Shown here: piece by piece, positions 4,762 through 35,879 of the stretch
Layout: each line of letters opens with the position of its first letter
How positions within the stretch are numbered: the stretch's first letter is position 1
Source: Zingiber officinale
Taxonomy: Eukaryota; Streptophyta; Magnoliopsida; Zingiberales; Zingiberaceae
Length of the DNA: 64,000 nucleotides
Assembly (NCBI RefSeq): GCF_018446385.1
Contig: NC_055999.1
Coordinates: 83,680,281-83,744,280, forward strand
Direction: 5' to 3'
Translations under genes and position numbers: made by a program
Notes under the pieces: model-generated
The model's input: only the letters and a program-made list of their open reading frames with translations
Told to the model about the DNA's origin: nothing
The model's database searches: none

Positions 4762-4780
4762 CAATCTCCCACTTATACTA
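4762..4780 (-). other. Polypurine tract of inner Copia element
   Basis: Read on the minus strand this is ATAAGTGGGAGATTG, directly upstream of the 3' LTR. Plus-strand DNA synthesis of an LTR retrotransposon starts at such a purine run. The same tract adjoins the older LTR at 12748-12762. Confidence 0.75.
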
Positions 4781-4789
4781 AAAAGACAT

Positions 4790-7694: not shown

Positions 7695-7721
7695 GTAGAC
7701 GGTAATCTCCCTTTCAGATAG

Positions 7722-8646: not shown

Positions 8647-8679
8647 CCTAAGAATCACAAATAACTTTTGGTCAGAACT

Positions 8680-12170: not shown

Positions 12171-12175
12171 AATCC
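12171..12175. repeat. Target site duplication AATCC, right copy
   Basis: Directly follows the CCAACA end of the inner element and matches 2380-2384. The bases after it resume the older LTR where 2384 left off. Confidence 0.9.
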
Positions 12176-12747
12176 TTATGAGCTCCTCTTGGGGACATCA
12201 TCAACCTACATTGCTAAGACACAGTTTCCTTCTATAATCAACAACACACACTATAAATAATATTATTTCCCAACTTATCGAACCTCTTGATTTATCGAAC
12301 TAAATCTCACCCACTGATAAATTAAAGAAATAAATACTAAATATATGTGATTGTTATTATATCGGGATTAAGAGCACACACTTCCATAATAACAGAGGTC
12401 TTGTTCTTTTATGCAGTCAGTATAAAAAGAAACTACCTCAAATGGTCCTGCTCAATACACTCAGAGTGTACTAGTGTAATTTTATAGTCAAGATAAACTA
12501 ATACCAAATTATACTACGACTATTCCAATGGTTTGTTCCTATCTATCTTAGTCGTGAGCTACTATTTATAACTTATAAGGAACTGATAACATGATCTTCT
12601 GTGTGTGACACCATACGCCATGTTACCTACAATATAAATTAATTGAACAACTACACTTAGCATATAAATGTAGACATTTGACCAATGTGATTCTTTATTT
12701 CAAAATAAATATTTACAAAAGCTAAGCTTTTAGTATACACTCTAACA
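12171..12747 (-). repeat. Older Copia element: 3' LTR, second part
   Basis: Continues the LTR broken at 2384 and aligns with 11595-12170 of the inner LTR with visible divergence. It ends CTAACA at 12747, followed by the polypurine tract complement at 12748-12762. The greater divergence fits the nesting order, in which this element is the older one. Confidence 0.85.
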
Positions 12748-12784
12748 ATCTCCCACTTATACTAAAAGACTATGTTGCCATAAA

Positions 12785-14601: not shown

Positions 14602-15173
14602 TCAAGCATTGGCGCTAACAATGATCTTCTGATATTTAAGATTATAAAATAAACCACCTTTCGTTCCTTTAGGATATCCCACAAACAGACAAACTTCTGT
14701 ACGTGATTCCAACTTGTCAGTGTCTCCCTTCCGTACAAATGCTGGACTACTCCAAATCCGAATGTGTTTCAGACTAGGCTTACGCCCATTCCATAATTTT
14801 ATAAGAGTAAAGGGTACTGATTTAGAAAGTACCATATTCAGAATATACACTGCTGTTTTCAGAACATATCCCCAAAATGAATTTGATAATTTTGAATAAT
14901 TCATCATCGATCTAACCATTTCTATAAGAGTCCTATTCCTTCGTTCTACCACACCATTATGTTGGGGTGTACTAGGTTAAGATAATTGAGATTGAATCCC
15001 GACCTTTGATAAGTAATTCCTAAACTCTCCAAAGAGGTATTCGCCACCACGATCAAATCGTAGTGTCTTGATACTTTTACCATGACATTTCTCCACATCA
15101 ACCTTGTACTCTTTGAACTTATCAAAGCATTCAGACTTGCGGCGCATCAAGTAAATGTACCTCGAATAGTCAT
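14602..15173 (-). pseudogene. Older Copia pol: integrase part, cut by the CACTA element
   Basis: 14952-14602 encodes VERRNRTLIEMVRSMM, then the WNGRKPS and GYPKGTKGG motifs of the Copia integrase C-terminal half. Behind it, 14953-15173 aligns with the integrase core of the plus-strand relative (36180-36380), with stops. The coding sequence stops at 15173 where the CACTA element begins and resumes at 30916. The region 14294-14601 between this and the RT piece is the hinge between integrase and RT, frameshifted. Confidence 0.85.
15171..15173. repeat. Target site duplication CAT, left copy
   Basis: CAT precedes the CACTACAAGAA end and recurs at 30913-30915 after the opposite end. A 3-bp duplication is the rule for CACTA elements. 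Confidence 0.85.
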
Positions 15174-15600
15174 CACTACAAGAAAAAAGCTAAACAACAA
15201 CGCTTTTTTGGCGTTGTCGTATGTACTTAAAAAGTGATGTTGTAGATGGTGTTGTAGAAAGTCATATCAAAGACAACGCTTTAAAAGCGTTGTGGTTGGT
15301 CACAAAGACAACGCTTTTTAAGCGTTGTCTTTTCGTTCTTAAAAAGCGTTGTTATAGATGCTGTTGTAAAAATGCACATATCAAAGACAACGCTTTAAAA
15401 GCGTTGTGGTTGGTCACAAAGACAACGCTTTTTAAGCGTTGTCTATTCGTTCTTAAAAAGCGTTGTTAAAGATGCTGTTGTAAAAATGCCCATATCAAAG
15501 ACAACGCTTTAAAAGCGTTGTGGTTGGTCTCAAAGACATTATTTTTTAAGCGTTGTCTTTTATTACTTAAAAACGTTGTCTTTTTAAATTTATAAAAAAT
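15174..15600. repeat. CACTA left end: TIR and palindromic subterminal repeats
   Basis: After the terminal CACTACAAGAA, a motif built on ACAACGCTTTTTAAGCGTTG recurs about every 60-130 bases in both orientations, often as a full palindrome (for example near 15279, 15305, 15385, 15421 and 15498). Two larger direct repeats of about 130 bases start near 15262 and 15378. In En/Spm such subterminal repeats bind the TNPA protein and bring the ends together. Here the role is inferred from position and pattern. Confidence 0.85.
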
Positions 15601-15879
15601 AGTGTTTTTCTTAATTAAATAGCAAAAATTATAAAAAATACTCAAAATTTACATATAATTGAATATCCACAACCACAATCATTTTTATAAGAAGACTATT
15701 TAACAAATAAATAAAACTTTATATTATACAAACAAAATGTATACATATTGATCCACAAATTAAATTTGTATCATACAAGTTATCCTTAACTTCATGACAA
15801 TAATTTTTCAAACACACAAGTTTTACAAAACCTCATCATTGACTAACCCCTGTTGTTGGTGTCCATCGCATGGAATTGC

Positions 15880-15965
15880 TTCTTTAAGTCCAGCAATCTC
15901 TTCTTCTGAAAGGCTTTCAGCTATCACTCTTAGAGCCATCTTCTTCAACTTGTCATCAGCACACC
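15880..15965 (-). pseudogene. Captured exon of a calcium-dependent protein kinase (CDPK)
   Basis: On the minus strand, 15951-15880 reads KLKKMALRVIAESLSEEEIA followed by GLKE, which is the conserved junction between the autoinhibitory segment and the first EF-hand region of plant CDPKs (CPK family Ser/Thr kinases activated by calcium). A CAG splice acceptor-like site lies just upstream at about 15966. After GLKE the sequence no longer looks like a CDPK; the usual MFKMID continuation is absent. Only this short piece is present; no kinase catalytic part was found. It lies inside the CACTA element in the same sense as the transposase genes, so it could be part of a chimeric transcript. No function is claimed. 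Confidence 0.75.
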
Positions 15966-16019
15966 TGGGGTTGTAGGCAATCAAGAAATTTTGTATGAAA
16001 ACTTTCATACATGTAAATC

Positions 16020-17150
16020 TCGTACTAAATAATATGTCAATGTTATATATACATGTAATTCATACCGTAAGTGTGTTTATATCGTAACTGACAAGTTTTC
16101 TTTAGGGCCAACTTCTACTCAAGCTCTTTAAACACTGCATCAAAATAAAAAAATTGGCATTAGTTCTGTGCTAAATGAAAATCATATTTAAAGGAAAAAG
16201 CGGGAGTGCTGTAGATGGATATATTAACCAAGCATATTAATGTTTGACCTGTCTTTACAAGTTCTAAGCATATATATTAACCAAGCGAGAGTGCTAGCTG
16301 TAGACTCCGAACCAAGTAAAAATAAACTATGTTAGCAATTGTTTTTACTTAACTTATATTCTGCTGCATTTTACTCAATTGTTTTTAAACGAACGTGAAA
16401 AAGCAACGAGTGCTATTGACATTAATTTTGAACTAGAATTAATTTTGAACTAGAATTTCTGTAATAGAATCTAACTTAAGTTATACCATGAGATTGACAA
16501 TTATTTACACAATTGAGCTGAAGCAAGGTAAAAGTTCAACTTGACATGACACATTCACAGTCCCAAAATCGAGGACGACATTCTATTCCCTTCCAACACC
16601 CATGCGTCATGGAAATATATATATTAACAAACTGTAGACATTATCCTACTATCAAATTCTCAGAAGTCAGAAGTTGGCAATGGAAATGTGAATGCAGTTC
16701 AATTTATGAATAGCTAATGATCAACTAAGTTGATTTTGGTTAGCTTTCCAGCGAGAGCTTGAATAAGAAATCGCATGCAGTGTACAAGATTCTTAGTTCA
16801 CGAAATTCCATAAAAACGGGTTAATTATAACAACATTAACTACCCATATTAAAAGATATATTGCATCTTTCAAAATAGGTTCACAAGAAACAAATCATCT
16901 AAAGAGGTCAATGCATGAAAACAAAATTCAAACAGCACACACCTAAGTTCGCTAACCATTGAACCAAGTGTACAATAAGCAAGTGGATTACATTTGTTAT
17001 TTCAATTTTTATTCAAAAATACGATAATGATGAATAAGGAGAAATGAATGAAGTCTTGATAAAGATTTACAACTAGGCTTTTTTACCAAAAAAAAACTTT
17101 TAATTAAATGGATTTGCCTCGTACAGTAAAAAAAATCTTATTAAAAGGTT
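16020..17150. other. CACTA interior, no coding region seen
   Basis: AT-rich, intron-like DNA between the captured CDPK piece and the captured S-acyltransferase exons. The stretch 16085-16170 resembles 19855-19970 (both hold 'actgcatcaaaa' followed by 'ttggcatta'), so a segment has been duplicated inside the element. Nothing else recognisable. Confidence 0.5.
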
Positions 17151-17219
17151 TTTCAAAATAATCTTAACCATGGTAAATTACATTCACAATAACTTTCTAA
17201 ATAATGAAAGTATGATACC

Positions 17220-18499
17220 TGATCCTCAAGGAATAATCTTGGCGGAGTACACCATGCACCGCGATGGAATTGATTGAAAGAACTGGTGCTGCTTAGTCCA
17301 GTAAAAGAGCTCACTTGGGACATTTGCGGACTTTGCTGCCCACCAACAGCAAGTTGCTCCTGCTCCTGATCTTGCTTCCTCAAAGCAATAATGTAATCAT
17401 AGGTGCTGATTCCCTGTAAGCGCATCCATGTAGAGTAGCATGAGCTAGTTAAAGTGTCAATTTTCTCCAGAATTGATGAATAAACAACACCATATCGTTC
17501 AAATTCTACTATTTGTTTTCCACTATGGAAAATCTATCAGTTAAATAACAAGCTGTAATAGTTCAGTTGGATAATAAGTTTCAGTAATGCTCAGTGTATG
17601 GATGAATGCAAAGAATTTGAAAATATAAAAGATATATTCCTTGAAATAGAGATATTTGACCGGATACATAGGTTTGTTTTATATAAATGTAGGAGCTGTG
17701 TAACTGGTAGTGTTTGCTGTGTCACAAGTAGAAATATGAAAGTAGTGTACCTTTTTTATTAAAAGAATATGGAAGAAGAAAAGTTGTGCAACTGGAAGAG
17801 TAGCAACCATGGCTAATAAAGTGCACACAGCCTGCATTATAGAGACATTATCAAATTAGTATCAGAACCTTGAAAAATCCTCATTATGATGTGTGATTTT
17901 CATTCATTTTCTCTTCTGAGTACTCACCACCACAATGATAAAGGGTGCCAAGGAAAAGCTACTACCCAGCTTTGAAACAATTTCAGCAGAAAATCTCCTT
18001 CTCTCAACAAAACACAGTATCAGCACAAGCATCCCAACAGCCCACTGCAGAATAAGCTGGCCCAAGGTGCACAAAGCATGGAGACCAATCAATAGTCAAT
18101 CAGAATGAAAAGGACCTGACATAAAATGCATTCTATGTATCAGGTCCTTCACGTACTAAGAAAATAGTATCTTCTAAGTTGATGCACACAGATGATAAAT
18201 CTACACTAAGAAAATAGTGTCAATCACTATGCATGATTAATGAATACAACTATTGGAATGGTAGGAAATATTTGTGCTTACCAAGAGAAGAGCAAACACC
18301 ATGAGGATGAAGAACCTTTTGTAATTTTTTCTTCCTATGCAGTTATTGATCCACTACAAGGAAAGATGAATACTGCATATTACTACAAGATAACAAAACA
18401 TATAAGGTTGTGAATGGAGAAAACCCTCACCCTGCAATGATGATCAAAGCCATCAACGCATTTGTCACAGACTCTACAATGCTTACTATATTTTAGAAC
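17220..18499 (-). pseudogene. Captured DHHC S-acyltransferase fragment, five exons with introns
   Basis: Five exon-like pieces on the minus strand, each with GT-AG borders, spell the second half of a plant protein S-acyltransferase. They are: 18499-18431 ([20 protein letters not shown], the zinc-binding DHHC cysteine-rich core); 18353-18282 (WINNCIGRKNYKRFF and a membrane segment start); about 18060-17927 (a hydrophobic membrane segment, then FVERRRFSAEIVSKLGSS); about 17835-17755 (AVCTLLAMVATLPVAQLFFF, a further membrane segment); and about 17415-17220 (GISTYDYIIALRKQDQ, then FHRGAWCTPPRL). DHHC enzymes attach palmitate to cysteines of membrane proteins; the DHHC cysteine is present. The N-terminal membrane part and the gene start were not found, so this is a fragment. 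Introns are retained, so it was copied from genomic DNA, not RNA. Frames look open within exons. It lies in the element's own sense. Confidence 0.85.
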
Positions 18500-19382
18500 C
18501 TGTAATACAAACAGATAGAAATCATTAGAGAAAAACCAAGTTAATATAAAGCACATAAGAACTTTATTTTCTTGAAAAGATTGTGTGGCTCATCGTAAAT
18601 GAGATCTCTATCACCTTTCTCCCTAATAACCAATATTCTGAATTATCCATCTTTTATGGTTATGCATTTGTCCAAAGGCCATCTGATCAAGCAATCAAAA
18701 AAAGTAAATTACTCATCTTACTGTCCTATTCTTTTTAAGACATCCTACCACACCACATGAGAAGCACCCACATTGTTTTGGTTAGCCTAGAAATTTGCAA
18801 CTTATCACCTCGAATCCCAACGGTGGCATCACTCTGAATTATTGCACAACTTCTCCATCCATAGCAATCCAAACACCAGAACACGAAATGGCGAAGAAAT
18901 ATTACCTTAGTTAAGATGGAAGATTAAAAGTATTGATCAGGAAGAGACCAACAACTTTAGAAGCCTCGAAGTTTTAAATTTTGTCCATGCTGGTTGGCAC
19001 AGGGAAAAAAAATTCATTCCATCTGCCAACTGGCACACGAAAAAGAACAAAACTACTGGTATGCTCCTATGAACTGCACCACCGCTTGCCGCCTTTAACA
19101 CCTCATGTGTTCCTCTTTGTCGGTTGAAACCTACTATGTCACCTCATTGCCAATTGAAACCCACTGCATCCCCTCACGAGCAGTCTTCTGAACAGCCACC
19201 CACCGGATGAGGCCAATAGCTTTGAATGCCTTAAACACATCAAGCAAGGAATATAGAACAATCTGCTTGAACACTAATACTTTGGTTCATGTTCAAGCAA
19301 GAGGATAACAATCTCATCGACAGTTAGTATTTCCTTTTAATATAGAACACTAAAAAGAAGGAATATCAATGATGAAACAAAC
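18500..19382. other. CACTA interior, no coding region seen
   Basis: No exon with recognisable protein similarity. Possible upstream intron of the captured S-acyltransferase or filler of other origin. Confidence 0.4.
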
Positions 19383-19460
19383 CTGAAAATGCGAGCTACT
19401 GAGGCAGCGAGCAATCTGCTTGAACAAGGTAATCATGCAGCGTTGGAACTCTGTCGTGAG
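19383..19460 (-). pseudogene. Captured exon of a PP2A B' (B56) regulatory subunit
   Basis: Read on the minus strand, 26 codons give EFQRCMITLFKQIARCLSSS followed by HFQ, then a GT donor. This matches the strongly conserved heart of the B56 (B') regulatory subunits of protein phosphatase 2A, normally EFQRCMVPLFxQIxRCLNSS then HFQ. B' subunits target the phosphatase to substrates. No further B' exons were found, and the usual continuation VAERAL is missing after the donor. The piece is inside the CACTA element in its sense. Short but specific; the main risk is that only 26 residues support it. Confidence 0.72.
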
Positions 19461-19638
19461 CATCAAAGACCAAATATTACCAAATATTAAGATCACTGAC
19501 AAACCAAATAATACCTTATTTTTAACAGCTATCTAGAGGATCTGGCTTTTTGACTTGAAGCTGGTTCAAAGAAGACAAATCAAATATACAAATACTAAGA
19601 TGAAAGCATAATGAAGTAGTTAACTTTTTCTACTTTAC

Positions 19639-19676
19639 CTGATTATAAGATCTACAGCTTCTTGCTCAGTATATTG
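19639..19676 (-). other. Possible captured small exon of unknown origin
   Basis: A 38-base stretch with a clean acceptor (GCAG before it) and donor (GTAAAG after it) on the minus strand reads QYTEQEAVDLII in one frame. The source gene was not recognised. It lies 180 bases upstream of the PP2A-like exon, so it may come from the same or another captured gene. Confidence 0.35.
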
Positions 19677-20041
19677 CTGCACGAGTAATTATTAGAAAAA
19701 CAAACCCAATAGTGGAACAAAAGCTTGATAAAGAAACTAGATAATTTACACTGATAGAACTTTACAGAATAACATATAATACAGTGCTTTGTACTTGCAT
19801 ATTAATCCAGAAAACATCCTTTCACCTAAGTGACAATTTTTCCAAAACATCATCATTCACTAAAAATTTTCACAAGTTTTTAAACTTCAGTGACAACTTT
19901 TCTTTGGGGTCAACTGCTCAAGGTCGATCTGGTAACTATGCACTGCATCAAAAAAATTGGCATTAACTATGATTCCACCAAAAAAACCACCATTCCATGA
20001 ACTTAAATCTAAATAGAATTATGGCAACTATCATTCCATAC

Positions 20042-23000
20042 CTATTCATAAATATGATCTTGTATGCACTCCGCCAACTCGGACCGAACCTCATCAATTT
20101 GTTCACGAGAGTACCCTTTTTTTGTGAACTGTGAGCATACACAATTTATGTTAATGGAAAAATAATCAACACTGATCACTTTGCAATTTTAAATAGTTTA
20201 TGTCAAATAATTTGAGATAAGCTAAATAATGTTACTATTGATTGCAGCGAATCTCTCTCAATAGTCTCAACTTCTTCAATAATTTCTCTCATAAAGCGCA
20301 TCACAAAAAAACCACATTGTTTCGCATCCGGTTGTTGAGGAGCCTATATATAGTAATTAGAGTCAAATTGTTAATGAAAATTATACACATTACAATATAT
20401 GTTAAACAAAAGTACACATACCTTAACTACTTCCCACTTAACATTTTTCCTACCTTTCCTTCCCTTGGTTGAATTAAACAATTTTAAGGCCCTTCATACG
20501 TTAAGAATATTTGTTAAATAAGATTTTTATTATAATAAATATTTACTAAAAGAAATCTGAACTCACATTTCCATTACGTATTTTGAATCATCATCGCGAA
20601 TGCGGCAACTTAGGGAATCCAGTAAATAGCATCCTTGTAAGGTTCAATAACACTAAGATTCCAATGGAAACTAGGCAAATACATAGGATTAGATCATAAA
20701 ATTGAATAAATTATCGAAAGGAAGCAATTGAAAGTGATGTTTTACTTCTTGCTTACCCGACATTACATGGCACTAACACTAGTTGATCTGTTGATGCACT
20801 TGTCAGCTTATCTGCTAAAAGAGTTGCCCTTTGATTCAGGGTTTCAAGCTTAACTGATTTGTCTTGTGCCGTTTTTGCCAGATATGGGAGTTTGTGAGGA
20901 TTCATAAATCTGAATTTCTTTGTCTTGGTATCTTTCACCATCTTTTTATACAGACACCTATCATTGCAAAGAAAAAAAATATTTAGATACTAAATAATAA
21001 AATTTAGATACAAAACACTCATAATAAGTTGGAAAAAATAATGATCACTCATAACACTAAGTTATGGTTGATGATAGTAACATCCATACGTGAGAACTTA
21101 CTATGAGCAGTCTTGCATATTAAACATACCAGAAATGTATACATGCAAATTCTTTTATTTCTTGAGGACAAGCACATTTAAGATACTTAAAAATATACAA
21201 GAAAAAAGATATGAGCAAAGTACTTCCTGTCTAGAAGAACAAATGGCAGAAGGCAAACATTAAGGGCCGGTTGAAAATGAATGAGCTATATTTATGTAAA
21301 GTGTACCACATCAATTGATATTAGTAAACCTCTCAATAGAAATGATGAACTATTAACTTAATGAGAATAACATGGTATGAGAAAATTACTAGAAGTTGAA
21401 TTTTCAAGAGTAAACTTGTTCACACAACAATATTAGTAAACTTCTTGCAGTTCAAATCAGGGATTTTCTGTCTTGCTAGATATTAGAATTTCCCAGCAAA
21501 CATAAAGCAATGCAGTAATTTCCCAGCATAAGTAAAGCAATGCAGTTGCAACCGAGAAAATAATATTTAGATACTAAATAATAAAATTTACTAACAAAAC
21601 AATCATGTGGATTAAAAAATAATGATCACGCATAATAAGTTGGTGAAATTGTAACAATAAACCATAATAAGTTGCTAAAATTGGGAAGCAAACATGTGAT
21701 GAAAAAGTTGCTGAAATTGCTTAAATAAACTTACTTACCATATGTAGGCAACGATCAAATTTCCTGAAATTGCCTCCAAATGATACAAAGAATTGATGTC
21801 CTCAAGGTCAAGAAAAAGTTCACAATCTTCATCAAACACTTCATTATCTAAGCACATTGATATACATTTTCCTCCATCTAGAGCATGCTTACTGTAACAA
21901 TATAACATATGTAATGATCTTGGGACACTTGTTGACAAAGTAGGTTTTGATTTTTTTCGTTCAAACTTCTTCCTTCTAGGCTTCTAATAATTTCAAATAT
22001 AAACAAGTTAGATAGCTAGGTTGAATAATAATAAAGTGGCAATATAATTAGAAATATAATAATAAAGTGACAATATAATTAGAAATATAATATCTCATAT
22101 ACCTCATCTTGCTTCACAATCTGCTTGTTCAGGCCAAGCCACAACAGTTCCTATGGCATCACCAATTACTTCACATTCACTTGGAATTGGATATGGCAAA
22201 GGAGCGGATTTGTCCACTGCTTGATCAATGGAGACTCGAATGCAATTCTTGGGAAATGGAATACCATGAAGCATTTTTTCCATGCCATTGAAACAAACAA
22301 TTGTACCATATGCAGCAATATTTGAGCAAGATTCCAATGTCAATGCAACTGATTGACCCTAAAATATTAAAAAAAAAACATGTTGATTATATTTAGTTTA
22401 TAATGCTATAATAATAATGAATATCACTATAACTTGTATTTTACCTGTAAAACTTCGTCTTTACCCACAATCTGTACGTCATCTTCTTCAATATTCTTCT
22501 GATGAAACTTCACCGAGCAACTACCTTTGTCATCAATTGAATTGTCCCATGCACCCCTTTTATGCATTAATGCTTCAAGTTTTTGGATGCGTACATCTTG
22601 TTCTAAAATTTGCATCTTCGCCTCCTTCAGCTCCCTTTTATGCTCAACGATTATATCTAGGGTAACATCATATTTCTTCCTTGTTCTACCAACATTGAAA
22701 TAGATTGTTGGGTTGATATGACCTCCGATACCCCGGACACGCCCAGAATATTCCTGAGTTTCAAGTGTCTTGGTAAGAATATCCTCTTTTGCTCCTTCGC
22801 ATTGCAGCTTACCCTCCCTCTTTTGCTGTATATATTCATCCTGTAATGCAACATTAAAAAGAATTATCAGTACTTTACCAAGGATAATTACCAAGGATAT
22901 GCAATATTGGTTTAAAAAATACTGATGTCCAGGCCGGTTCTTCCCGTGATAGCTCAAGTCAAGTGCTTAGTAAGTCATATTGAACAAATATGAAGTTGAC

Positions 23001-25596
23001 TTTGAAATATTTTTTCCTTTTTTGGCATTCAATCATATATTTACTTCTGCACAGTTCTAAAAAAGGCACATATTTGATTGAGCAATTGACTACAAGTTTA
23101 ATAAAATGACAAAATTTTAATAAATTTTCACTACACAAACCCATAAAGAGAGGACCACCACATAATTGAAGCTAATTGTCTGGAGTTGCAGGAAAGAATA
23201 ATCAAAAGTAAACCTGCTAAATGTGTATACAAATTAAAGAGTTCATTTTAATATATCGTTTCTTATTAACTTATTAATTGAGTTGTGCCTCATGCACTTA
23301 TGTCCTTGTATGCAGTGTTATTCCGAAGTCTTTGATGCTAAAGGAGGTGAGTTAGTTCTCTGAAGCTCCCTCTCTTTCTTTTATACAAATTAACAATGAA
23401 TGTGAATGAAAAGCACTGTTTGTTCTTTTGTTGCTGTTACCTGTAGTTAACTGGCGGGCCAGTAGGAGAAGTTAGGGAAGTATCGGACATGCATGAAATG
23501 TAATGTAAGTCCAAACAAACAAATTTTGTTTATCTTAAGTCCTTTATCTTATCTCAATTTTGTAATGTTAGGCGGGCCGGTAGACCAAACAAACTTCTCC
23601 TTCAGTCCTTTATCTTATCTCAATTTTGTTTCTTCTTCTGGATCTAATTTTTGCTTATAGAATTAGCTTTTTGTGAAATGTAATGTAAGTGCATGCGTAT
23701 CACACCTTCCATTTTCTATAAGCATATAATATAATAATAAGATCGGTATTAAAATAGGAGATAATGAGTTATTTATAAGGAAATGTAGATGAGAATATTA
23801 GGATGAATATGTGGACATATGACAATGAAAAATATAAGACATGAGAATAATCAAAGTTATACTTATCAAGAAAAAACTGAAAAATAAATTTAAGATGAAA
23901 ATATGTACGTAAACAATTAATAAATAAACGATGTGAAATTATAAAAGTTATACACATTTAGCAATGGTTGTTATATATTCTTTAATCTATATTTCCTAAG
24001 TGGGAAAACATAATAGAAGCTTCAGAGCAGTGGTCTGGGGAACAACTTTACTGGCCCTTGGGTTACTGAAGCTTACAAATTTCTTACTGCCAAGAACGTT
24101 TCAAACCTGGTTGATTTATCTGCATCTATTCTATAGAAACTCTAGCTATCACCTCTAAGTTCTCAATGCATTCACCATTAATTGATTGCAGCAAAAGGAA
24201 ACCACTGCATGTAATAGACTTTTCGACTTGATCTCTTCTCCAAGTAAGAACATTTCAAACCTAGATACCTAGTAAATCCACATCTGTTCTATATAAACCC
24301 GTCACCTCTAAGCTCTCAATGCATTCATTCACCATTTACTTCCTCAATACATGCTCTAGTACTGAGAATTCAAGCTATGCAAGGAATGACTATTAAACTC
24401 CTCATTGCACTGCTTGCCTTGGCTTCCTCACGCAAAGGGTATGCATGCATGCAACTTTACTCTCGAAAACTAGAAGATATATTGAAGTCATTATCAGAAG
24501 AACATGAAAATTTACTTACAATCTTGTGTACTGTGTCCACCAAATCTTCACCTTCAAACTCTCCTCCTTTGTTGGCGCGTCCTTTCTTCCACATAATAGC
24601 TCTATTGATGTCATTATCATCACATAATTCAGTCCCCTACAACAAAGAAAAATCAAATAACAAATGTGAAATAATTTAATGTGAATCAATTAGAGGGTTC
24701 TTAGAGGAAATATATTTTAAAAATACTTACAATTTCTTCAGCAAAGCGTGCATACCCTTTGCGTGAGAGTCGATGAGGATATCTATTTTTTTCCTTCGCT
24801 CTTTTTGTTGATCACTGAGTTTCTAGTTATTTCAAACAGGCGACATATCAAATTTGAATAATACATAATGAATTATGATCGAATAGTTTCAAAAGAAAAA
24901 ATTTAGAATCTTACAATGAAATCTTCAGAAATGCGACTAATGACAAACGCACGCCAATCTTCTCTTGTAATTTCAAAGCCAATAGGTGGCTCATTCAACT
25001 CCTCAGGTTTGTCACGCCTGCTTAAAATAAATTTTTGGGTGAGATGGGTCTTGTATTGCCTCCACTTACTGTTTGCAGACCTCAAACATCCCTTTTTCCA
25101 CTTTGAGTCAACATTATAAATCAATTGTACATCAAATAAGTGGAAAACATTAATAAGATTAATTAAGACAAACATAAAATATATCTATCATTAGTAGTGA
25201 AATATTATAATTGTTAAAACATGCTAACTTGCTTACATTGACTGATTCCCATATTAATTCTTTGACAGCAATTGGGACTTGCTTCCATGTCTTGTATTTA
25301 ATATTAACCTTTTGCCGAGCCAAGACACCAATGTAACTTTGCATGGCTACAGCAGCTGGTCCTATCGGTTGTCCAAAATTATTGAATGACACCTCATTTC
25401 TAATACCTTGCATTCTTTGCTTTGTAATCTTATCCAACTGTGTGCGACCTCTAGAAGTTCTTGAGGAGATAGTGTCTTTGGAATCCAACACTTTATCACC
25501 CTCGCAACTCTCTTCACGGGCAGCTGTAATGACTTCTTTACCCTTGTCCAACTTTGCAAGTTGCCCTATTCTCTTACTCTTTCTAGTAGAATCCAT
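20042..25596 (-). CDS. CACTA second gene: Ptta/En/Spm region plus Ulp1-like cysteine protease
   Basis: The likely start is the ATG at 25596 (MDSTRKSKRIGQLAKL). Exons on the minus strand are approximately 25596-25240 (basic region, then NNFGQPIGPAA); 25130-24915 (WKKGCLRSANSKWRQYKTHL); 24830-24730 (SRKGYARFAEEI); 24640-24515 (RAIMWKKGRANKGGEFEG); 22845-22445 (coiled-coil-like, HKRELKEAKMQILEQDVRIQ); 22360-22110; 21990-21735 (LDLEDINSLYHLEAISGNLI); 20945-20755; about 20690-20590; 20343-20236; and 20128-20042. The first four match the plant transposase family Ptta/En/Spm (TNPA-related). The last exons carry a peptidase C48 (Ulp1/SUMO protease) layout: HWNLSVI at about 20665, a DSL after YW, and QCGFFVMRFMREII with the catalytic Cys. 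A one- or two-base shift near 20617 interrupts the exon with DSL. Exon borders of the last two exons are exact in phase; the others are approximate. TNPA-type proteins bind the subterminal repeats; the role of the protease part is unknown. Confidence 0.75.
22960..24480. other. Large intron of the CACTA second gene with foreign pieces
   Basis: This 1.5-kb gap between exons of the second gene is longer than its other introns. It contains a near-duplicate of about 90 bases (24100-24190 and 24240-24335, each with 'catctattctata/catctgttctata' and 'ctctcaatgcattca'). It also has possible plus-strand exon pieces at about 23312-23352 and 23457-23500 with GTGAGT and GTAAGT donors. None was identified. 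It looks like insertion of captured DNA. Confidence 0.45.
24285..24445 (+). promoter_or_regulatory. Possible captured promoter and signal-peptide start
   Basis: On the plus strand a TATA-like box (CTATATAAAC at about 24289) is followed some 85 bases later by an ATG at 24377, reading MQGMTIKLLIALLALASS. That is a hydrophobic start typical of a secreted plant protein. The similarity then ends and the frame runs into antisense of the transposon exons. It may be the 5' end of a captured small secreted-protein gene. The source was not recognised. Confidence 0.4.
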
Positions 25597-25854
25597 TGAT
25601 CTGTAACAACTTAGACTGATCAACATAAGTTTAGTTAGAAACATGCATAAACTCACAGCAAGATGATATATTTACACCAACAAATTCACAACAGTATGAA
25701 AAAAAATAAAAGATAAAAGCAGAAACTTGCAGCAACATCACAACATATCTGATTCGAATTAAAGTGAGGAATATAACATATTAATATTGTCCACAAATTC
25801 ATCCTCATAGGTAAATTGTTTACACACTTATAATCAAAAGCAAAAATTCAGCAA

Positions 25855-28800
25855 TTAAATATTGTCAATCCAACTTCCATCACAGTCTTCACGAATACAT
25901 GGTGGTTCATTATCATCTTCTCCGTCAATATCCATTGATGGTAACCCCCTACTAAAACATTGATAGTGGATAGCAGTGTCCTCTAACTCTTCGCCCTTTA
26001 GGTATTCAAAGTAGTCTCTGTTTGGTGTTGCAAGTACAACACTCCATAAAGGATCTTCGGGATCTTGAATGTAAAATACTTGCTTTGCTTGGCTTGCCAG
26101 GATAAAAGCGTCAGATTTGAATCCAAGTCTATTGAGGTTTACCAATGTGAAACCAAGATCATCTACTTTAATGCCGTTATTATGCTCCACCCAATTACAT
26201 TTAAACATTGGAAGTTGAAATTTATGGTAATCAACTACCCATATTTCTTCTATAACTCCATAAAAAACCATATCTGACACAATAGGATTTTTATCCTTTG
26301 CACTTGCAACTTGCATTGTCTTTGCAACTAAGCTGACTCTGGAGTTTTGAACAACTCGTATAGCATCACGCTCTTTTGTAGCATAAGTAACCCCATCAAT
26401 CAAATAGCTAGAGTATTTTAGTACTTGCTTGTTAGGCCCGCGAGCTATCCACATCAATCTTTCTGAAACTTGATGAGTGGAATGGTCAACTACATCAGCA
26501 ACCTAAATTTTTTATGCAATAAATATTTAATTATGCATAAATATGAAAATGAATGTATGCCAATATGTAATACTAAAGAAACTTACACGATCACGCAACC
26601 AAGTAATAAACGTTCGATTATGCTCATCTTGTAACCACTTCTTGGACTTAGCCTTACGAGGAAATCTTGCATTCAAATACGTCATGTGTTCCCTAATCAA
26701 ATTATTTGGTATAAATAAACCAACAGAATGTAAGCAAACCACATTAAAATATTAATAAGTTAGATACATTACTCGATATAGAGATCAATCTCAGCATCAT
26801 TTGCCAATACATAACGATGTGCTTGCGTCAACTCATCGTGAGTAGTGGAGTAGACTACTGCACCTGATAAAGGCTTAGTAAGTTCTATTTGTCGATGACT
26901 TGATGGGATCCCAATTGTGTGCACACTAGACAGATAGTCTGAGCAAAATTCAACAGCCTCTTCAGCAATATAAGATTCAGCCATACACCCTTCAGGTCGA
27001 TTGCGATTTCGCACATAACCTTTCAAAATCTTCATGTATCTTTCAAATGGATACATATACCTATACCAAACCGGTCCACACAGTTTCACCTCCCGCACAA
27101 GATGAACACTTAAATGAATCATTATATCAAAAAATGAAGGGAAATACTTTTCAAGTAAACACAATATTGTCACAATCTCTCTTTGCATATCATCCATCCT
27201 TGAAACATCTATCACTTTATTACATAACACATTGAAGAAGAAACACAAGCGAGTGATAGTGTCTCTAACATGTTTGGGCAAAACACCACGTATCGCAACA
27301 GGAAGCAATTGTTGCATTAAAGCGTGGTAGTCGTGTGACTTAAGGCCAATAAGTTTTAAGTCCTTCAACGACACGAGGTTTTTAACATTAGATGAGTAAC
27401 ATGATGGAAGTTGTATTCCAAACAAAGAATTCAAAATTTTCCTTTTCTCATCCTTACTAAGTGTATAACAGTCTGTTGGCAAAAATGTTTTCTTCTCCCC
27501 CATCCTTGGTGCCAAATCTGTCCTGACATTCATTTCCAAAAGGTCTAATCTCGCTGCTACTCCATCCTTTGTTTTTCCTGGAATATCAAGTAACGTTCGA
27601 TAAGACTTTCACAAATATTCTTTTCAATGTGCATCACATCAAGAACATGTCGAATGTATAGATGTTTCCAATACTGAAGTTCAAAGAAAATTGATTTTTT
27701 TTCCAGCATGATTTTACATCATCATTCGACTGAGACTTTCTACTCATTTTTCCCCAATGACAATTAATTCTTTCAACTCTTTCAAAAACTTCATCGCCAC
27801 TTAATGGTTTTGGAGCAGGGTTAAATTCTTGGTTCCCATTAAATGCCTTCCGTTGCCTTCGATAAGGATGAGTTGCAGGTAGAAACCTTCTATGACCTGT
27901 ATAAGACATTTTCCTACTATGCTTCAACCTTGTTGAATAGGTATCTTCACCACAAATAGGACATGCATGATATCCTTTCACAATGCATCCTGACATGTTC
28001 CCATATGCAGGAAAATCATTGATCGTCCATAATAAGATAGCCCTAAGCATAAAAGTTTCTTGGCGATATGCATCATATGCTTCGACACCTATATCCCATA
28101 AGCATTTTAAGTCATCAATTAGAGGTGCTAAGTAAACATCAATATCATTTCCTGGCTGTTTGGGACCAGAAATTAACAATGTGAGCATCATAAATTTTCT
28201 CTTCATACACAACCATGGAGGAAGATTATAAGTAATCATTAAAACTGGCCAACAACTATATGCAGAACTCATTAAACCATGAGGATTCATCCCATCAGCT
28301 GATATAGCCAATCTGAGATTTCTTGCCTCAATACCAAAATCTGGCCATTTGCGATCAACTATTTTCCAAGAAGGTGTATCAGCTGGATGGCGTAAATATC
28401 CATCACAAAGTCTTTTTTCGGCATGCCAAGTCAACTCCTTAGATATCTCTTTATTCCGAAACATTCTTTGAAATCTTGGAATAGGGGGGAAGTACCACAA
28501 AACCTTGGCAGGAATTCCTTCATTTATCATATTTTTTTTCCCAACTTCCACCTTGACATCCCGCAAGTAGGGCAATTAGTTAAATCCTCATACTCCTTCC
28601 GGTATAAGATACAATCATTAGGACAAGCGTGAATTTTTACATAATCCATCCCTAATGCAGATAAGCTTTTCTTTGCATCATACAGAGATAAAGGCAATTT
28701 ATTGTCATCTGGAAGTATTTCTCCTAACAAACTGAGTAGGTCGGTGAAACTTTTATCACTCCAACTATATTTGGCCTTCAAGTTGAATAATTTCACAATT

Positions 28801-29222
28801 GCAGATAACCTTGTAAATTTAGTGCATCCCGGATATAAAGGTGTCTCGGCATCTTCAAGAAGCTTATTGAATTGGGTTGGATTCTCAGCATAACTATCAT
28901 ATGCATCATGAACCATATTTATTGGTTCCTCACGAACATATTCATTTGGCCCTACTTGGTCACTTTCATTTTGTGAAATCCCTATCGTAGATCTTTCGCC
29001 GTGCCATATCCATGTATGATATGTCATATCTATACCGTTACAATACAGATGTGCCCTGATAGTTTGTATATTTTTCTTCTTTAGATTGCCACATTTTGCA
29101 CATGGGCAAGATATTCCCATATTCGGATCATTAGTGTTTTCCATTGCAAATTGCAAGAAAGACTCAACTCCATTCTCATATTCACGTGATAGTCTATCCT
29201 TTGACATCCAATCTTTGTCCAT
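25855..29222 (-). pseudogene. CACTA TNP2-type transposase gene, several frameshifts
   Basis: The start is the ATG at 29222 (MDKDWMSKDRLSREYENGV). In order on the minus strand: the N-terminal transposase-associated region with CPCAKCGN and ACPNDCILYRKEY (29222-28530); the TNP2 catalytic region with KWPDFGIEARNLRLAISADG, SGPKQPGNDIDVYL and CPICGEDT (28575-27634); the DUF4218-like region with FFNVLCNKVID and YMYPFERYMKILKGYVRNRN (27539-26773); a 106-base exon (26692-26587, EHMTYLNARFPRK); and a last exon (26502-25855) with the DUF4216-like block GFTLVNLNRLGFKSDAFILA and the stop. The last three exons join in phase by GT-AG borders. The first half carries three one-base shifts: in an 8-base A run at 28532-28539, in another at 27695-27702, and near 27600. 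This is the enzyme that cuts and joins CACTA ends. As read it cannot be made in full. Confidence 0.9.
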
Positions 29223-30200
29223 TCTTTATAACTAATCAATCAACAATGAGCTAATACCTAAAAATATTAACACAAACAATAGTGTGAAACTATAACAAAA
29301 TATTTAAACAATTAATCAAAATTGTATTTCTACCTGAAAATTTTTGACCATACAGGTTTCTCATCAAAATGCAATCCCAATAGCAATTTTCTCACTTGGG
29401 GAGATAACCTAGTTATCTATATTATCCATATGTACATGTTTGTTAGAGTCTACGTATAGGTAGTTAGGTACTTTTGCCTTGGTATAAATTGTAGAGTCAT
29501 ATAATATTGGAGCATTCACCAAAACATATTCTCTATTGAAACATGTTAACCTTTAGTTGAAAAATGAAACCATTCCAGGAAAATGCTTGAATTATAACTT
29601 ATAATAAGCAACTTTGTTTCTTTAGCACTTGAGAATCTGCAACTTCCTCAAAGGGACATCAACATAAGCAACTCAATGCAATAGTGCATGATGTATTAAA
29701 TCATACTTAAGCCATTAAGCTCTTAGAAGGCATGTGACATAAATATAACAATAGTAGTTGATATAAATTCAACAAACTGAGTAGGCACAAGTCACTGCCC
29801 AGAATTAAGATGAGATAATGCAGAACACAAGTTTTAGATACAATAAAAATGAGAGATATTCTCTGCGCATTAAGGGTACACAATAAAAATAATAGTAGAA
29901 TAACACTAGAGATTGATTAATTTCAAGCTGCACATTATACCTGACGACAAAGAAAGGCTGGAATGTGAATAATATCTGCAACTTGGCCAACAGCTTCACA
30001 CTGAATTTGAGAAAAAAGGATAGCATGTTATATGCTTCATGCTATTTTTAAGGATTAATACCTATTGCCAAAGTCTATAGCTAAACGTTTAAAAATTCCA
30101 GATTAAATCATGAGAAAATACAATCAGGGGAGGGGGAAAATTGATGCAGTATGAATCCGGCAAAATGGCTAGTTCGGAAAATAATCAAAAATAAACAAAA
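29223..30200. other. Upstream region of the transposase gene
   Basis: Non-coding AT-rich DNA between the TNP2 ATG and the GC-rich right end, probably the leader and first intron of the transposase transcript. No exon was recognised. Confidence 0.45.
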
Positions 30201-30229
30201 TCTTATTCTAGAGGGATGGAAGAAATTTT

Positions 30230-30665
30230 ACCTTTCTTTCTTCCGTTCCTCCTACTCTCGAATCTGCTCTGCGAGGAAGGAACTAAGATCGAAGGGTTCA
30301 GAGGAGTTGAGGAGCCGTGAGAAGATTAGGAAGGATAAGCTGACTTTGATTGAGGAGATGGGGAAATGCGAGATTAGGGATCTCGACTTGGAGGAGTTGG
30401 GCCGGCGTGAGGAGTTTTGCGTGAGGAGTTTGGGTCGAGATTAGGGTTCAGAGGAGATCACGCGGCAAGGAGAGGAGAAGGCGCTCGTGGAGAGGAGAAG
30501 GCGCTCGTGGAGAGGGGTGGAGAGGAGAAGGCGCTCGTGGAGAGGAGAAGGAGAGGAGAAGGCACTCGTGGAGAGGAGTGGAGAGGAGAACTCGTGGAGA
30601 GGAGTGGTGAGGAGAAGGCGCGCGCGCGTTGAGGGTTTAGAGTTTAGCAAAGCGAGGGCTGCGAA
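30230..30665. repeat. GC-rich promoter-proximal region with GAGGAGAAGGCGCTCGTG minisatellite
   Basis: A GC-rich island at the 5' (right) end of the CACTA element. Between about 30470 and 30620 a unit of about 20-33 bases containing GAGAGGAGAAGGCGCTCGTG is repeated at least five times. GC-rich first exons next to the TIR are typical of the En/Spm 5' end, where methylation controls the promoter. Its regulatory role here is inferred only from position. Open frames across it are by-products of the repeat. Confidence 0.7.
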
Positions 30666-30689
30666 TTTATTTTAAGTGAGTTTAGGGGA

Positions 30690-30912
30690 AACATACACAA
30701 CACTTTAAAAAACGTTTTTTAAAAAAATGTTGTCTTTGACCATAAACAACAACACTAAAGACAACACTTCATTAAAAACCGTTGTCTTTAGTAAAAAGTA
30801 AATACCATAGACAACGCTTTTCACTAAAAGCGTTGTAAAACAAAGAACGACAACGTTTTTATTAAAAAGCGTTGTCTATTGGGTGTTGTTGAATGCAAAA
30901 ATTCTTGTAGTG
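30690..30912. repeat. CACTA right end: subterminal repeats and TIR
   Basis: The same ACAACG...CGTTGT motif as at the left end recurs near 30695-30720, 30760-30785, 30810-30835 and 30848-30878. The last bases, TTCTTGTAGTG, are the inverted partner of the left TIR. The CAT duplication follows at 30913-30915. Confidence 0.88.
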
Positions 30913-31048
30913 CATCTATAAAAGAGATAAAATATTTGAAACCACCTCTTGCCTGGATAGATATAGGACCACACAAATTAGAATAAACCAGTTATAACAC
31001 ATCTTTGGCTTTATACCCCTTGGCCTTAAAAGTTCTCTTGGTCATTTT
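30913..31048 (-). pseudogene. Older Copia integrase, continuation beyond the CACTA insertion
   Basis: The CAT duplicate at 30913-30915 is followed by sequence that aligns with 7105-7240 of the inner Copia element (integrase and GAG-pre-integrase border, minus strand). It continues the reading left at 15173. It ends where the plus-strand LTR starts at 31049. The rest of this older element, including its 5' LTR, is not in the window. Confidence 0.85.
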
Positions 31049-33490
31049 TGTTAGAGTGTATACTGAAAGCCTAAGCTTTTGTAGACATTTATTTTGAATA
31101 AAGAATCACATTTGGTCAAATTATCTACATTTATTTGTAGTTGTTCAATTAATTTATATTGTAGATAACATAGTATGTGGTGTCACATACAGAAGATAAT
31201 GTTATCAGTACCTTATAAATTATAAACAGTAGCTCACGACCAAAATAGAAAGGAACAAACCATTGGAAGGTCGTAGTGTAATTAGGTATTAGTTTATCTT
31301 AACTATATAATTACACTAGTACACTTAGAGTGTATTGAGTAGGACCATTAGAGGTCGTTTCTTTTATACTGACTTTATAAAGGAACAAAGACCTCAGTTA
31401 TTATGGAAGTGTGTGCTCTTAATCCTAATATAATAACAAGCACATATATTTGATATTTATTTCTTTAATTTATCAATGGGTGAGATTTAGTTCGATAAAT
31501 CAATAAGCCCGATAAGTTGGGAAATGATATCACTTGTAGTGTGTGTTATTGATTATAGAAGGAGACTGTGTCCTAGTGATCTAGGTTGATAATGTCCCCA
31601 AGAGGAGCTCATAAGGATTGTCATGTTAAACCTTGCAGGTGGACTTAGTCCGACATGATGATAAGGTTGAGTGGTACTACTCTTGGACTAAGATATTAAT
31701 TAAATGAGTTGTCAGTAACTTACTTAATTAGTGGACATTCGACATCTTAAACACAGGGAGACTAACACACTCATAATAAGAAGGAGCCCAAAAATGTAAT
31801 TTAGGATTGATGCGGTAGTTTAATAATAGTTCTTTAGTGGAATGAATTATTATTGATAAAATTAAGTTGTGTGTTCGGGGTGAACACGGGATGCTTAATT
31901 TTATTGGGAGACCAAAACCAATTCCTCCTCTCGGTCCCTATCGTAGTCTCTTACTTATAGAGTACTATACCCACCTATACCCACCTTCGTACCCATCTAA
32001 AAGGGCCGGCCAAGTTTTGCTTGGAGCCCAAGCAAGGGCCGGCCAAACCATGTTTAGATGGGATTGATTGTGGCCGGTCCAAGCATGGGTTCAACCTATG
32101 TGTGGCCGGCCATTAGAAATAGAAAAAGAATTTTAATTTTAAATTTTTTCTTATGTGGAATACATGATTTAAAAGAGAGTTTAAAAATTAAAATATTTCC
32201 TTTTATAAGATTCTACAAAAGATTAAGAGAAGAGTTAAATCTCTTTCCTTATTTGTAGATTAAAAGGTTGATTTTAATTTTGGTAAAAACTTTCCTTATT
32301 CATAAATCATCCACATGTTGAAAAGATAAATTTTAAAATTATAGAAATTTCCTTTTTAACATCAACCATGAAGGGATTATTAAAGAGAAATTTTATTTTA
32401 AAATTTTTCCGGAAGCAAATTAGGAAGCTTTAATTTTTCTAGCGAAAAATTTCCTTGTTTGCTTGTTTGATGTGGCCGGCCGTATACACTAAGAAAAGAA
32501 TTTTAATTTTAATTAATTTTAAAAAAAATTTCAATGGCAAAAGAATTAAGGAAGGTTTTATTAAAATTTCCTTATTTGCCAAGGCTAAGGAATATAAAAG
32601 AGGGGGTTTGGGTGCCTTCATGGACACAACCTCTATTCTATTTTCTTTCTCTTTTCTTCCTTGGTGTGGCCGGCTTCTTCAAGGTCTCTCCTCTCCTTGG
32701 TGTGGTCGAACCTCTCATCTTTCTTGGAGATCAAGTGGTGGCCGGATCTTAGCTTGGAGAAGAAGGAGAGAAAGCTTGCATCCCTTGGAGCTTGGTTGGT
32801 GGAAAAAGCTCTTCATCCTTTGGAAGTTTTGTGCTTGGCTGAAACTTGAAGGAAGGAGAAGAAGGTGCTAGGTGGTTCTCGTCTCGGAAGATCGTTGCCC
32901 ACACAAGGTCCGAGATTAGAAGAGGAATACGGTAGAAGATCAAGAGGTCATTATTCACAAAGAAAGGTATAACTAATAATTGTTTTCCGCATCATGTTAG
33001 TTTTGTTTCTTTGTAAAAATATCAAATACAAAAGGCATACGATTCTAGTTTTTTTGAATTAGTTTTCGAAGTTGTGTTCTTTTGTTTTTTCTTTTCCTTG
33101 TGATCTGATTGTTCTTAGTGGTTAACCTAGGGTTACTATGGGAAGGTTAAATATTTAATTTCCTTAAAAGGCTTTGTCTAGTCGGTGGTGGTTGCTCCCA
33201 TATCCAAGAAGGTCATGTGCCTCGCCATGTAGTACTAGAAGCCGATTTTGGAAATAGATATTTAATTGTCTTCGTGACCTAGGTGATTTGGATCGAACGT
33301 GTTAAGTTTCGCAGAAGATCCAAGTCTAAACCTAAAAGAACAAATAAATTAAACTTAGGATCAAACGTGTTAAGTTCCGCAGGTGATCCAAGTTAATTTA
33401 AAAGAACACATGGTAGCTAGGAAAAGGTTTAGACCTTTGTACAAATTTTTGTACAGTGGAACCGTTAGGTTTTCCGAGTAGCAACCAACA
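31049..33490 (+). repeat. 5' LTR of third Copia element
   Basis: Starts TGTTAGAGTG and ends GCAACCAACA, 2442 bases, the inverse complement of the LTRs at 2385-4761 and 9755-12170 with moderate divergence. GGCCGGCC sites recur near 32005, 32038 and 32105. With the copy at 9755-12170 it forms an inverted pair 19 kb apart. Confidence 0.92.
32593..32600 (+). promoter_or_regulatory. TATA box of third Copia LTR
   Basis: TATAAAAG, matching in inverse orientation the conserved boxes at 3282, 10652 and 1409. Confidence 0.6.
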
Positions 33491-33492
33491 AT

Positions 33493-33504
33493 TGGTATCA
33501 GAGC
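33493..33504 (+). other. Primer binding site for initiator Met tRNA
   Basis: TGGTATCAGAGC lies two bases after the LTR end. This is the standard plant Copia primer site, complementary to the 3' end of initiator methionine tRNA, from which minus-strand DNA synthesis starts. It is intact here and lost in the inner element at 9745. Confidence 0.92.
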
Positions 33505-34607
33505 TAGGGTTTTGCCTTTGTGTATTTGGTATTAGTTTAATTATGCACATGTCATACATAATTTAGGCAGGATAATAGTAGGATGTGCTAACTTTATGGA
33601 TGCAGGATCCAACTATTATGACTTATAGTTATTGTGTGTGTGATTGGACCCTTGGACATGTCAAGGGCATTTTATTGTGTGTGCATGATTGTATTATAAA
33701 ATACAGCAGGAGTTGTATTTAGTTTTATTAGGATTTTATTTTTGATCTAGATACATGTACATTTCTTTGAGGAATATAGGATCGAAAAATATAAAATTCT
33801 ATTTATGTCGCGAATCGAATCTTGCAAGGCGTAGAACTTTTAAAGGACCAGAGGCGCAGCGGAACAAGGAGCAAGATGGATGCGACAAATAGACCCGGTG
33901 GCGGTGGCCAAAAATGGCAGCAGCTAGGGATGACAACATACGGAGGACAACAATAGATAAAAGCCATAATAGTTGAAAATTAGTTTTTCTATTATTGCTT
34001 TTATGTTGTGCTGTGTGTGTTTGTTAGTATGCATGTTAAGTAGGCTAGCATAGTCAAAATTTCTCACTTTAAATAACTAAGTGGGAGAGAGATTTTAAAT
34101 AAATTCCACGGTCTCCATTACTGGTTTGTAAGTGATACAAACAAACTTGCGCGTTGGCTCTGAGTGCCTTCCTCCATATCGGATGAGTTTGTTTGTGGAT
34201 CACTAGAACAAACTTCCATTTTGGATGACTATAGGAAATTAATTAAGAGCGTGTGATCTTCCCCATCGGAAGGGGCACAATCTTATTAATGGACTTAGTG
34301 TCAAGTAATGGTATACACTTAGGCACGTCTAATAGTATCCTCCCCATCGGAGTCACTGCTATTATTCGTGTGACCAAAGGAAACCAACTATTAATTTTAT
34401 TTGTCAAAAAGTTAGGTTGACAAAATAATAAAATTAATGGGTTAAACCCTCCTTTTACAAATGTTGAATTTGTATACGTCCACACTATTGTGACATACAA
34501 AATTCACGGTGTTTTGAGCTGTTGGTTAATTTAAAATAGTATTGTTTGAGGAATCAATATTATTCTAAATTTATAGTTCTGACCAAAAGTTATTTGTGAT
34601 TCTTAGG

Positions 34608-35879
34608 ATGACTTTCAACCCACTGGCCATCATACTAAAAGAGAACAGACTTACTAGTCATAACTACATAGATTGGAAAAGGAACCTAGACATTGTTCTT
34701 ACTGCTGAAAGCTATAAATTTGTACTGACTGAGCCTTATCCTGATGCACCCAATGGTGAATCTACCCAAGAGGAGATTGAGTATCATAAGAAATGGGTAA
34801 AAGCAGATGAGATGGCGCGGTGTTACATTTTGGCTTCAATGTCAAATGTATTGCAACATCAGCATCAAGATTTACCAACAGCTTATGGTATTATGAACAA
34901 TCTCAAGGAACTCTTTGGTCACCAGGATCGGGCCTCTAGGCAAGAAGCCATGAGAAAGATAATGACGGCCACCATGCAAGAGGGTACTCCTGTGAGGGAT
35001 CATATCCTAAAGATGATGGTTTATCTAAATGAAATACAAATCCTTGGAGGAGAAATTGATGGGGAAACCCAGATCAATATGATCCTCCAAACGCTACCTA
35101 GAAGTTTTGAGCAATTCCGCCTCAATTATAATATGAATAAAAGGGTATATTCATTGGCGGAACTACTGACAGAACTTCAGGCAGCAGAAGATTTGTTTCG
35201 TCACAATTCTCAGATTCACTATGCTGAAAATGGCTCTACTTCTAAACCGAAAAGAAAGAAGAAGAAGAAACAAGTTAGCTCAGCAAAGAAGGTGAATAAA
35301 TCTCAGAGTACAGGACCTAAAGCTGGAATGAAGAAGCCGAATGGCAAGTGCTTCATCTGCAAGCAGTCAGGGCATTGGAAGGCAGATTGTCCTCGTAGGA
35401 ATCAAAACAACAAAGGTATATCTCATGCTCTAGTTGTTGAAACATGTTTAGCGGTGTTATCTACCAGCACCTGGTGTGTAGATACGGGAGCCACTGATCA
35501 TGTCTACAATTCTTTACAGGGGTTCCAGGAAACCCGACGACTATATGAAGGAGAGATAACCGTCTACATGGGCAATGCTACTAAGGTGGCGGCTGTTGCA
35601 GTGGGAGACGTCTACTTATCTTTTGATAAGAATAGAAAATTGGTTTTAAGAAATTATCTTTATGTACCCAGTTTTAGAAAGAATTTAATTTCAGTTTCTA
35701 AACTGTATTTGGATGGATATTCTGTTTCCTTTAATAACAATGTAGTTATAAAGAGAAATAAAGTGATTATCTGTTCTGGTGCATTAGTTGACAATTTATA
35801 TACTTTAAATCCAATTTCTCCCATAAAGCAAAATATGAAAATTTATAACACATCTTCTAACACTAATAAGAGAAAATAA
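34608..35879 (+). pseudogene. Copia gag and protease, open up to an in-frame TAA
   Basis: The start is taken as the ATG at 34608 (MTFNPLAIIL). Codons upstream in frame begin with GTG and are unlikely to be used. The Gag region carries the LFGHQDRASRQEAMRKIMTA and LPRSFEQFRLNYNMNKR motifs, a lysine-rich stretch, and the zinc knuckle CFICKQSGHWKADC at 35349-35390. The protease active site DTGATDH is at 35481-35501. The frame stays open for 424 codons, then meets TAA at 35877-35879. The following pol is in the same frame, and the inner element has GAA at this point, so the stop looks like a single-codon change. Gag forms the particle and the protease cuts the polyprotein. Confidence 0.9.

Follow-up and report, generated by a model that had tools for sequence, protein, structure and literature searches.

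How did coding sequence resembling three unrelated signalling-protein genes come to lie together, all on one strand, in a stretch of ginger DNA that is bounded by two short inverted repeats? The stretch in question, positions 15174 to 30912, lies in a window of 64,000 nucleotides from Zingiber officinale (NCBI RefSeq assembly GCF_018446385.1, contig NC_055999.1, positions 83,680,281 to 83,744,280 of the forward strand), and coordinates below are those of the window unless a copy from elsewhere is named. A first-pass annotation, made from the letters of the window alone, had read it as a CACTA element that carries pieces of a DHHC S-acyltransferase gene, a PP2A B' gene and a CDPK gene. We assign a probability of about 0.9 to the reading that it belongs to a recently amplified, transposase-bearing CACTA family that took up unrelated host gene pieces as DNA and spread them by transposition. 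The genome contains the mobile unit, its cargo in many copies, the host gene that gave the DHHC piece, copies that differ in cargo and derivatives with internal deletions.

The borders of the element are defined by terminal inverted repeats (TIRs) and a target-site duplication (TSD):

15174..30912, strand - (the strand of its transposase genes): CACTA element, from TIRs, TSD, empty-site reading and domains
15174..15184, strand +: left TIR, CACTACAAGAA
30902..30912, strand -: right TIR, inverse of CACTACAAGAA
15171..15173: TSD CAT, left copy
30913..30915: TSD CAT, right copy
15197..15579: subterminal repeats inside the left end, a 114-bp unit repeated 3.4 times

The 15.7-kb element has 11-bp TIRs with CACTA at their start at both ends and a TSD of 3 bp, and the right end holds subterminal sequence that is related to the left 114-bp unit but weaker. 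When the flanks are joined after deletion of one CAT, a Copia integrase frame (FIDDYSRYIYLM) runs through the insertion site, and the element therefore sits inside a Copia retrotransposon; the frame around the site contains one stop, farther upstream in the flank. CACTA TIRs, a 3-bp TSD, a TNP2-type transposase and subterminal repeats are all present, which places the element in the CACTA (En/Spm) superfamily, and the TIRs, the CAT duplication, the restored Copia frame and the transposase domains confirm the TIR- and TSD-bounded element that had been claimed.

The host-derived pieces of the window copy are the following:

18431..18499, strand -: exon 1 of the DHHC piece
18282..18353, strand -: exon 2 of the DHHC piece
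17928..18056, strand -: exon 3 of the DHHC piece
17751..17831, strand -: exon 4 of the DHHC piece
17219..17413, strand -: exon 5 of the DHHC piece
16299..19240, strand -: single captured block from a host DHHC S-acyltransferase gene, introns and flanks included
19383..19465, strand -: 3' end of a PP2A B' (B56) exon, then GT
15847..15966, strand -: CDPK exon piece (KLKKMALRVIAESLSEEEIAGLKE), frame broken, abutting tail copy Y (described below) at 15846/15847

The five exons of the DHHC piece (17219-18499) give 182 open codons with GT/AG at 10 of 10 splice ends, and they match the DHHC domain in Pfam (E=3.4e-28) and ZDHHC5 in the PDB (E=5.4e-16). The annotated five-exon fragment on the transposase strand is thereby borne out, while the host-derived stretch proves larger than had been noted, extending over 16299-19240 with introns and flanks. 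Because the DHHC introns are kept, the capture took place at the level of DNA. The PP2A B' piece, 28 residues up to the GT, matches PP2A B56 in the PDB (E=0.001) and B56 in Pfam (E=1.3e-5, at a score of 24.8 just under the curated cut-off of 25), in agreement with the proposed exon and its strand. The identity of the CDPK exon also held (PDB CDPK, E=3.2e-9; a Pfam search gave no match), although its extent had to be corrected to about 15847, with the frame lost after AGLKE. All three pieces are on the transposase strand, downstream of both element genes; a shared sense has a chance of 1/8 under random orientation and is, on its own, weak evidence. An exon-like open reading frame (ORF) at ~19640-19690 (QQYTEQEAVDLIIR) was set aside: joined to an adjacent piece, it matched nothing but PYRIN, and that below threshold.

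The search for relatives of these pieces was extended to the assembly from which the window is taken (211 contigs that total 3,090,333,446 bases). A 37-mer from DHHC exon 1 found 79 matches with at most 3 mismatches, 75 of them exact, and its reversed control found 0. Among the 79 is the DHHC donor, a host gene on two contigs, here L064 (C22) and L065 (C21). L064, read over 6.5 kb, aligns with window 16299-19240 at 96.0% over 2,950 columns and has no other match to the element. L065, read over 5.0 kb, is 98.6% identical to window 16679-19240 and 98.5% to 16493-16687, with ~600 bp of other DNA between the two and a weak additional match (68%) at window 19039-19176; its stretch ends short of the left end of the captured block and, like that of L064, holds no element sequence outside that block. 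An additional upstream exon-like frame ending FYCSLCEVEV is found in L064, and the L065 stretch does not show it. With this exon joined to the captured piece the Pfam DHHC match begins at profile position 7, as against 18 for the piece alone, and the captured piece is without the donor's upstream exon with CxxC. Between the window and L065, 30 of 2,557 sites differ; the counts are 58 of 2,891 for the window and L064 and 26 of 2,517 for the two donor alleles, and by these figures the capture may date from about the time at which the donor alleles diverged. A further pair, on C19 and C20, shows only 76.7% likeness and was taken as a paralogue.

A genome search with the DHHC piece yielded 80 candidates, of which 40 were scored, every one given as 100% identical, and 20 of the 39 scored matches outside the window were fetched and read. 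In all 20 the alignment begins at the left end of the element (window 15153-15175), and the short flanks are all different; 15 of the 20 match the window over ~9.8 kb at 99.0-99.5%. Identical flanking triplets were found in 14 of the 17 copies with both ends read; the right end of L016 falls outside its stretch, and L026 and L028 stand outside the flanking-triplet test. DHHC exon 1 and the CDPK piece occur in 20 of 20 fetched copies, which answers the suggestion to look for other copies with the same fragments, and the PP2A piece occurs in 16 of 20. The junction between the CDPK piece and the adjoining tail copy has 360 matches in the genome (at most 2 mismatches; control 0). If the assembly is phased, the counts of 79 and 360 cover two haplotypes, and the 79 include the donor; a phased ginger assembly of 22 pseudochromosomes in 11 homologous pairs, built with Oxford Nanopore (ONT) reads, is described in PMC8342452. 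Similar coordinates of two matches on C4 and C5 were considered as a haplotype sign and dropped, since their flanks differ.

The family appears to be young. Between the window and the 15 full-length-type copies (120 pairs), substitution differences have a median of 0.37% and a range of 0.13-0.58%. At 1.3e-8 substitutions per site and year, the rate used for ginger in PMC8342452, the median corresponds to roughly 0.14 million years, with the proviso that transposons may mutate faster. In the CDPK piece, L009 and L020 each show base changes clustered within a few bases, found in single copies, which have the look of error-prone repair or of assembly error.

Copies also differ in what they carry. 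L019 (6,223 bp), L024 (6,338 bp) and L027 (8,022 bp) hold the DHHC and CDPK pieces without the Transposase_21 region; L019 keeps window 28642-30574 and L024 keeps 29069-30574, in both cases part of the Transposase-associated ORF, and in L027 the transposase region is unmatched altogether. L068, a mismatched match to the 37-mer, is likewise an element copy with an internal deletion. There are additions as well: L027 has an extra ~2.3 kb in which a proteasome alpha-5 gene is represented by its last exons (PDB E=8.7e-22; Pfam only E=0.086), and both L026 and L027 hold ~1.05 kb with an exon-like piece where the window copy has 36 bp. That piece of L026 (LSFQRFQADEQGWVDTIKSMRFGGAVRISTMDWLGQSQYLRQTVFWPSLSSAVSE, about 4224-5275) had no match in Pfam or PDB searches. 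The stretch ~4224-7643 of L027 shows, besides the proteasome exons, other exon-like pieces in transposase sense.

In the window copy the genes of the element itself are represented by the following features:

28527..29225, strand -: Transposase-associated domain part, E=1.4e-22
27634..28575, strand -: Transposase_21 (TNP2) part, E=6e-98
26769..27608, strand -: DUF4218 part, E=3.4e-40
25855..26502, strand -: DUF4216 part of the transposase gene, E=5.8e-20
20040..20989, strand -: Ulp1-like (Peptidase_C48) second gene, exons or remains

Joined, the Ulp1-like pieces match in Pfam over the curated cut-off (E=4.1e-5); a 36-residue piece on its own falls under it (E=0.0023). The TNP2 frame of the window copy is broken at three places, over three ORFs in different frames. 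In a comparison of part of the gene with 15 other copies, five had none of the window's three length changes and the remaining copies vary; one of the five, L038, is much more diverged (79 base differences from the window). Since two of the three break places are homopolymers, assembly error is possible. As it stands, the window copy does not have the unbroken transposase genes of an autonomous element; it does have captured coding DNA between TIRs, as Pack-TYPE or Pack-CACTA elements do, and it lacks their other mark, being non-autonomous without a transposase match. L038 is the transposase stretch of copy L018, the left 9.8 kb of which are 99.4% like the window, giving L018 a mosaic-like appearance. 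At window 24246-24450, opposite to transposase sense, a TATA-like stretch on the + strand is followed by a short signal-peptide-like ORF (near 24376; no match in a Pfam search), and 24092-24174 is a partial repeat of the upstream part of this region. Window 23213-23996 is missing from L026 and L028 and kept in the 15 full-length-type copies.

The cargo is accompanied by apparent scars of repair:

19833..19965, strand -: tail copy X, adjoining the end of the Ulp1-like gene
16089..16162, strand -: tail copy Y, first half (score 52 against a shuffle maximum of 36; 0 of 300 shuffles reach the score)
15816..15846, strand -: tail copy Y, second half (no shuffle out of 300 reaches the score)
19241..19276: 36-bp filler, standing where L026 has ~1.05 kb more

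The short tail next to the Ulp1-like gene is thus repeated and split, with a half on either side of the CDPK piece, and 15 bp of the 36-bp filler recur in the PP2A piece at 19412, ~150 bp off. A tail duplication and a filler made of nearby words fit break repair with template switching, a route that PMC8978399 credits to Rubin and Levy. Host pieces would then have entered as DNA together with their introns, probably through template switching while breaks inside the element were repaired, and the cargo would have been spread by cut-and-paste transposition, the copies presumably moving with transposase of the family, provided in cis or in trans. The pieces themselves may be passive cargo with no function of their own, because the DHHC piece lacks the upstream CxxC exon and the CDPK frame is broken.

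Several points weigh against this account. A donor is shown for only one of the three fragments, DHHC. For CDPK no donor was found, in that the in-frame donor pattern gave a single genome match, L069 (G000:C2:153379216), which was not accepted as it is 90% alike over only 61 bp and looks frame-damaged; the proposed alignment to parent genes therefore succeeded for DHHC and failed for CDPK, and the annotated capture of host gene pieces holds through the mobile copies and the DHHC donor, without its donor side for CDPK and PP2A. Reading covered only 20 of the 39 scored matches outside the window and a small part of the 79 and 360 pattern matches. L014 and L015 have altered right ends, and L027 has no matching 3-bp flanks. 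The match of the second half of tail copy Y is thin (score 42 against a shuffle maximum of 41). One might go further and suppose an ordinary host region bounded by chance TIR-like words; the shortness of the TIRs, and nothing else, speaks for this, and it is refuted, to the point of deserving almost no credence, by the recurrence of the insertion unit, TSDs included, at many places and by the undisturbed donor gene elsewhere. The annotation itself had named a host region present without TIRs, or the lack of a closer parent, as grounds for doubt: the DHHC region does lack TIRs in one place, but as a separate donor gene, and the same block is also found in TIR-bounded copies elsewhere, most of them with matching 3-bp flanks, so that capture stands; a closer parent, the DHHC donor, was identified. 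A rather unlikely alternative, though one to be taken more seriously, is the tandem-element route proposed for Pack-CACTA, as described in the review PMC13317346, by which two nearby insertions lose their facing ends and form a hybrid element with the host DNA between them. The direct tail duplication (X and Y) that flanks the cargo could be a leftover of such a hybrid. Against that route, a cargo derived from three or more unrelated genes, a CDPK piece inside tail copy Y and a filler of nearby words call for several repair events.

It may also be asked whether selection maintains the DHHC exons, for instance as a spliced exon cassette or as a truncated protein from element transcripts. Of 21 copies, 20 have an open DHHC frame, L017 being the exception through the loss of one base, and all 21 retain the splice ends; relative to the donor, at sites where both alleles agree and with the window and every fetched copy except L019 compared (19 copies), changes are found at 2 of 543 exon sites versus 36 of 1,948 other sites (Fisher p=0.009); and the 37-mer has one substitution over the ~75 matches taken as element copies, 22 of which were read. 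Polymorphism in exons versus the DHHC introns alone, at 2 of 546 and 11 of 735, gives p=0.05. The lower rate of exon change is a lead only, because the copies were picked by this very piece and the donor branch is constrained in its exons too. The family is moreover so young that open frames are to be expected, and an upstream exon of the enzyme is missing from the piece; we therefore regard selection on the exons as very unlikely. Hardly less improbable is the broader proposition that the family is an exon-shuffling platform under constraint, in which sense, spliceable cargo that blends into element transcripts is favoured through host tolerance or escape from silencing. All five pieces with a match or an exon structure (DHHC, CDPK, PP2A, the L026 exon and the L027 proteasome alpha-5 exons) are in transposase sense, and the lower rate of change in the DHHC exons than around them would fit as well; the + strand ORF near 24376, if captured, would speak against it. 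The amplified CACTA family with host pieces as cargo is the reading that we retain.

Around the insertion, related Copia-like sequence is clustered at 4195-12748 and 31047-37409 of the window, where 578-bp copies resembling long terminal repeats lie in both orientations. Rfam and tRNA scans of the window gave no match.

Published work already covers CACTA elements that combine several host fragments, as well as chimeric transcripts and repeated capture (PMC1947982, PMC4290129, PMC8978399, PMC8903248), and offers the following comparisons. Tgm-Express1 of soybean, a 5.7-kb CACTA element made of five host gene fragments (PMC1947982), resembles the ginger element in its superfamily and in combining pieces of several unrelated genes, their introns and canonical splice sites retained; in soybean the pieces are spliced into chimeric transcripts. 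It differs in size and make-up, the ginger element being 15.7 kb long, with transposase domains and many copies. On wheat chromosome 3B (PMC4290129), CACTA-mediated capture likewise placed the same captured gene in several copies of one family, and some captured genes are transcribed with low dN/dS. The most frequent capture in the passages compared involves a single gene, present in seven copies of one family on a single chromosome, whereas the DHHC 37-mer has 79 genome matches, probably spread over two haplotypes and with the donor among them, and its donor gene is known. CACTA-like elements of Chenopodium also hold captured pieces outside the coding region, upstream of ORF1 there (PMC8978399) and downstream of both element genes in ginger. 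Pack-TYPE elements are TIR elements with captured coding DNA, a description that L027 fits and L019 and L024 mostly fit; they are defined as non-autonomous (PMC8903248), unlike the window element, which keeps transposase domains. A literature search on ginger, CACTA and transposon gave no title on a ginger CACTA among those listed, which does not prove absence in print.

The type of event is thus known already, and what is visible here is one donor gene together with a series of copies that have transposed. Through such cargo, transposons can shuffle host exons and may promote silencing of the genes that the pieces came from. In a young family with many copies, the donor, the captured block, the repair scars and the gain and loss of cargo can be read from one genome, and such a record makes stepwise capture, and any orientation bias, measurable.

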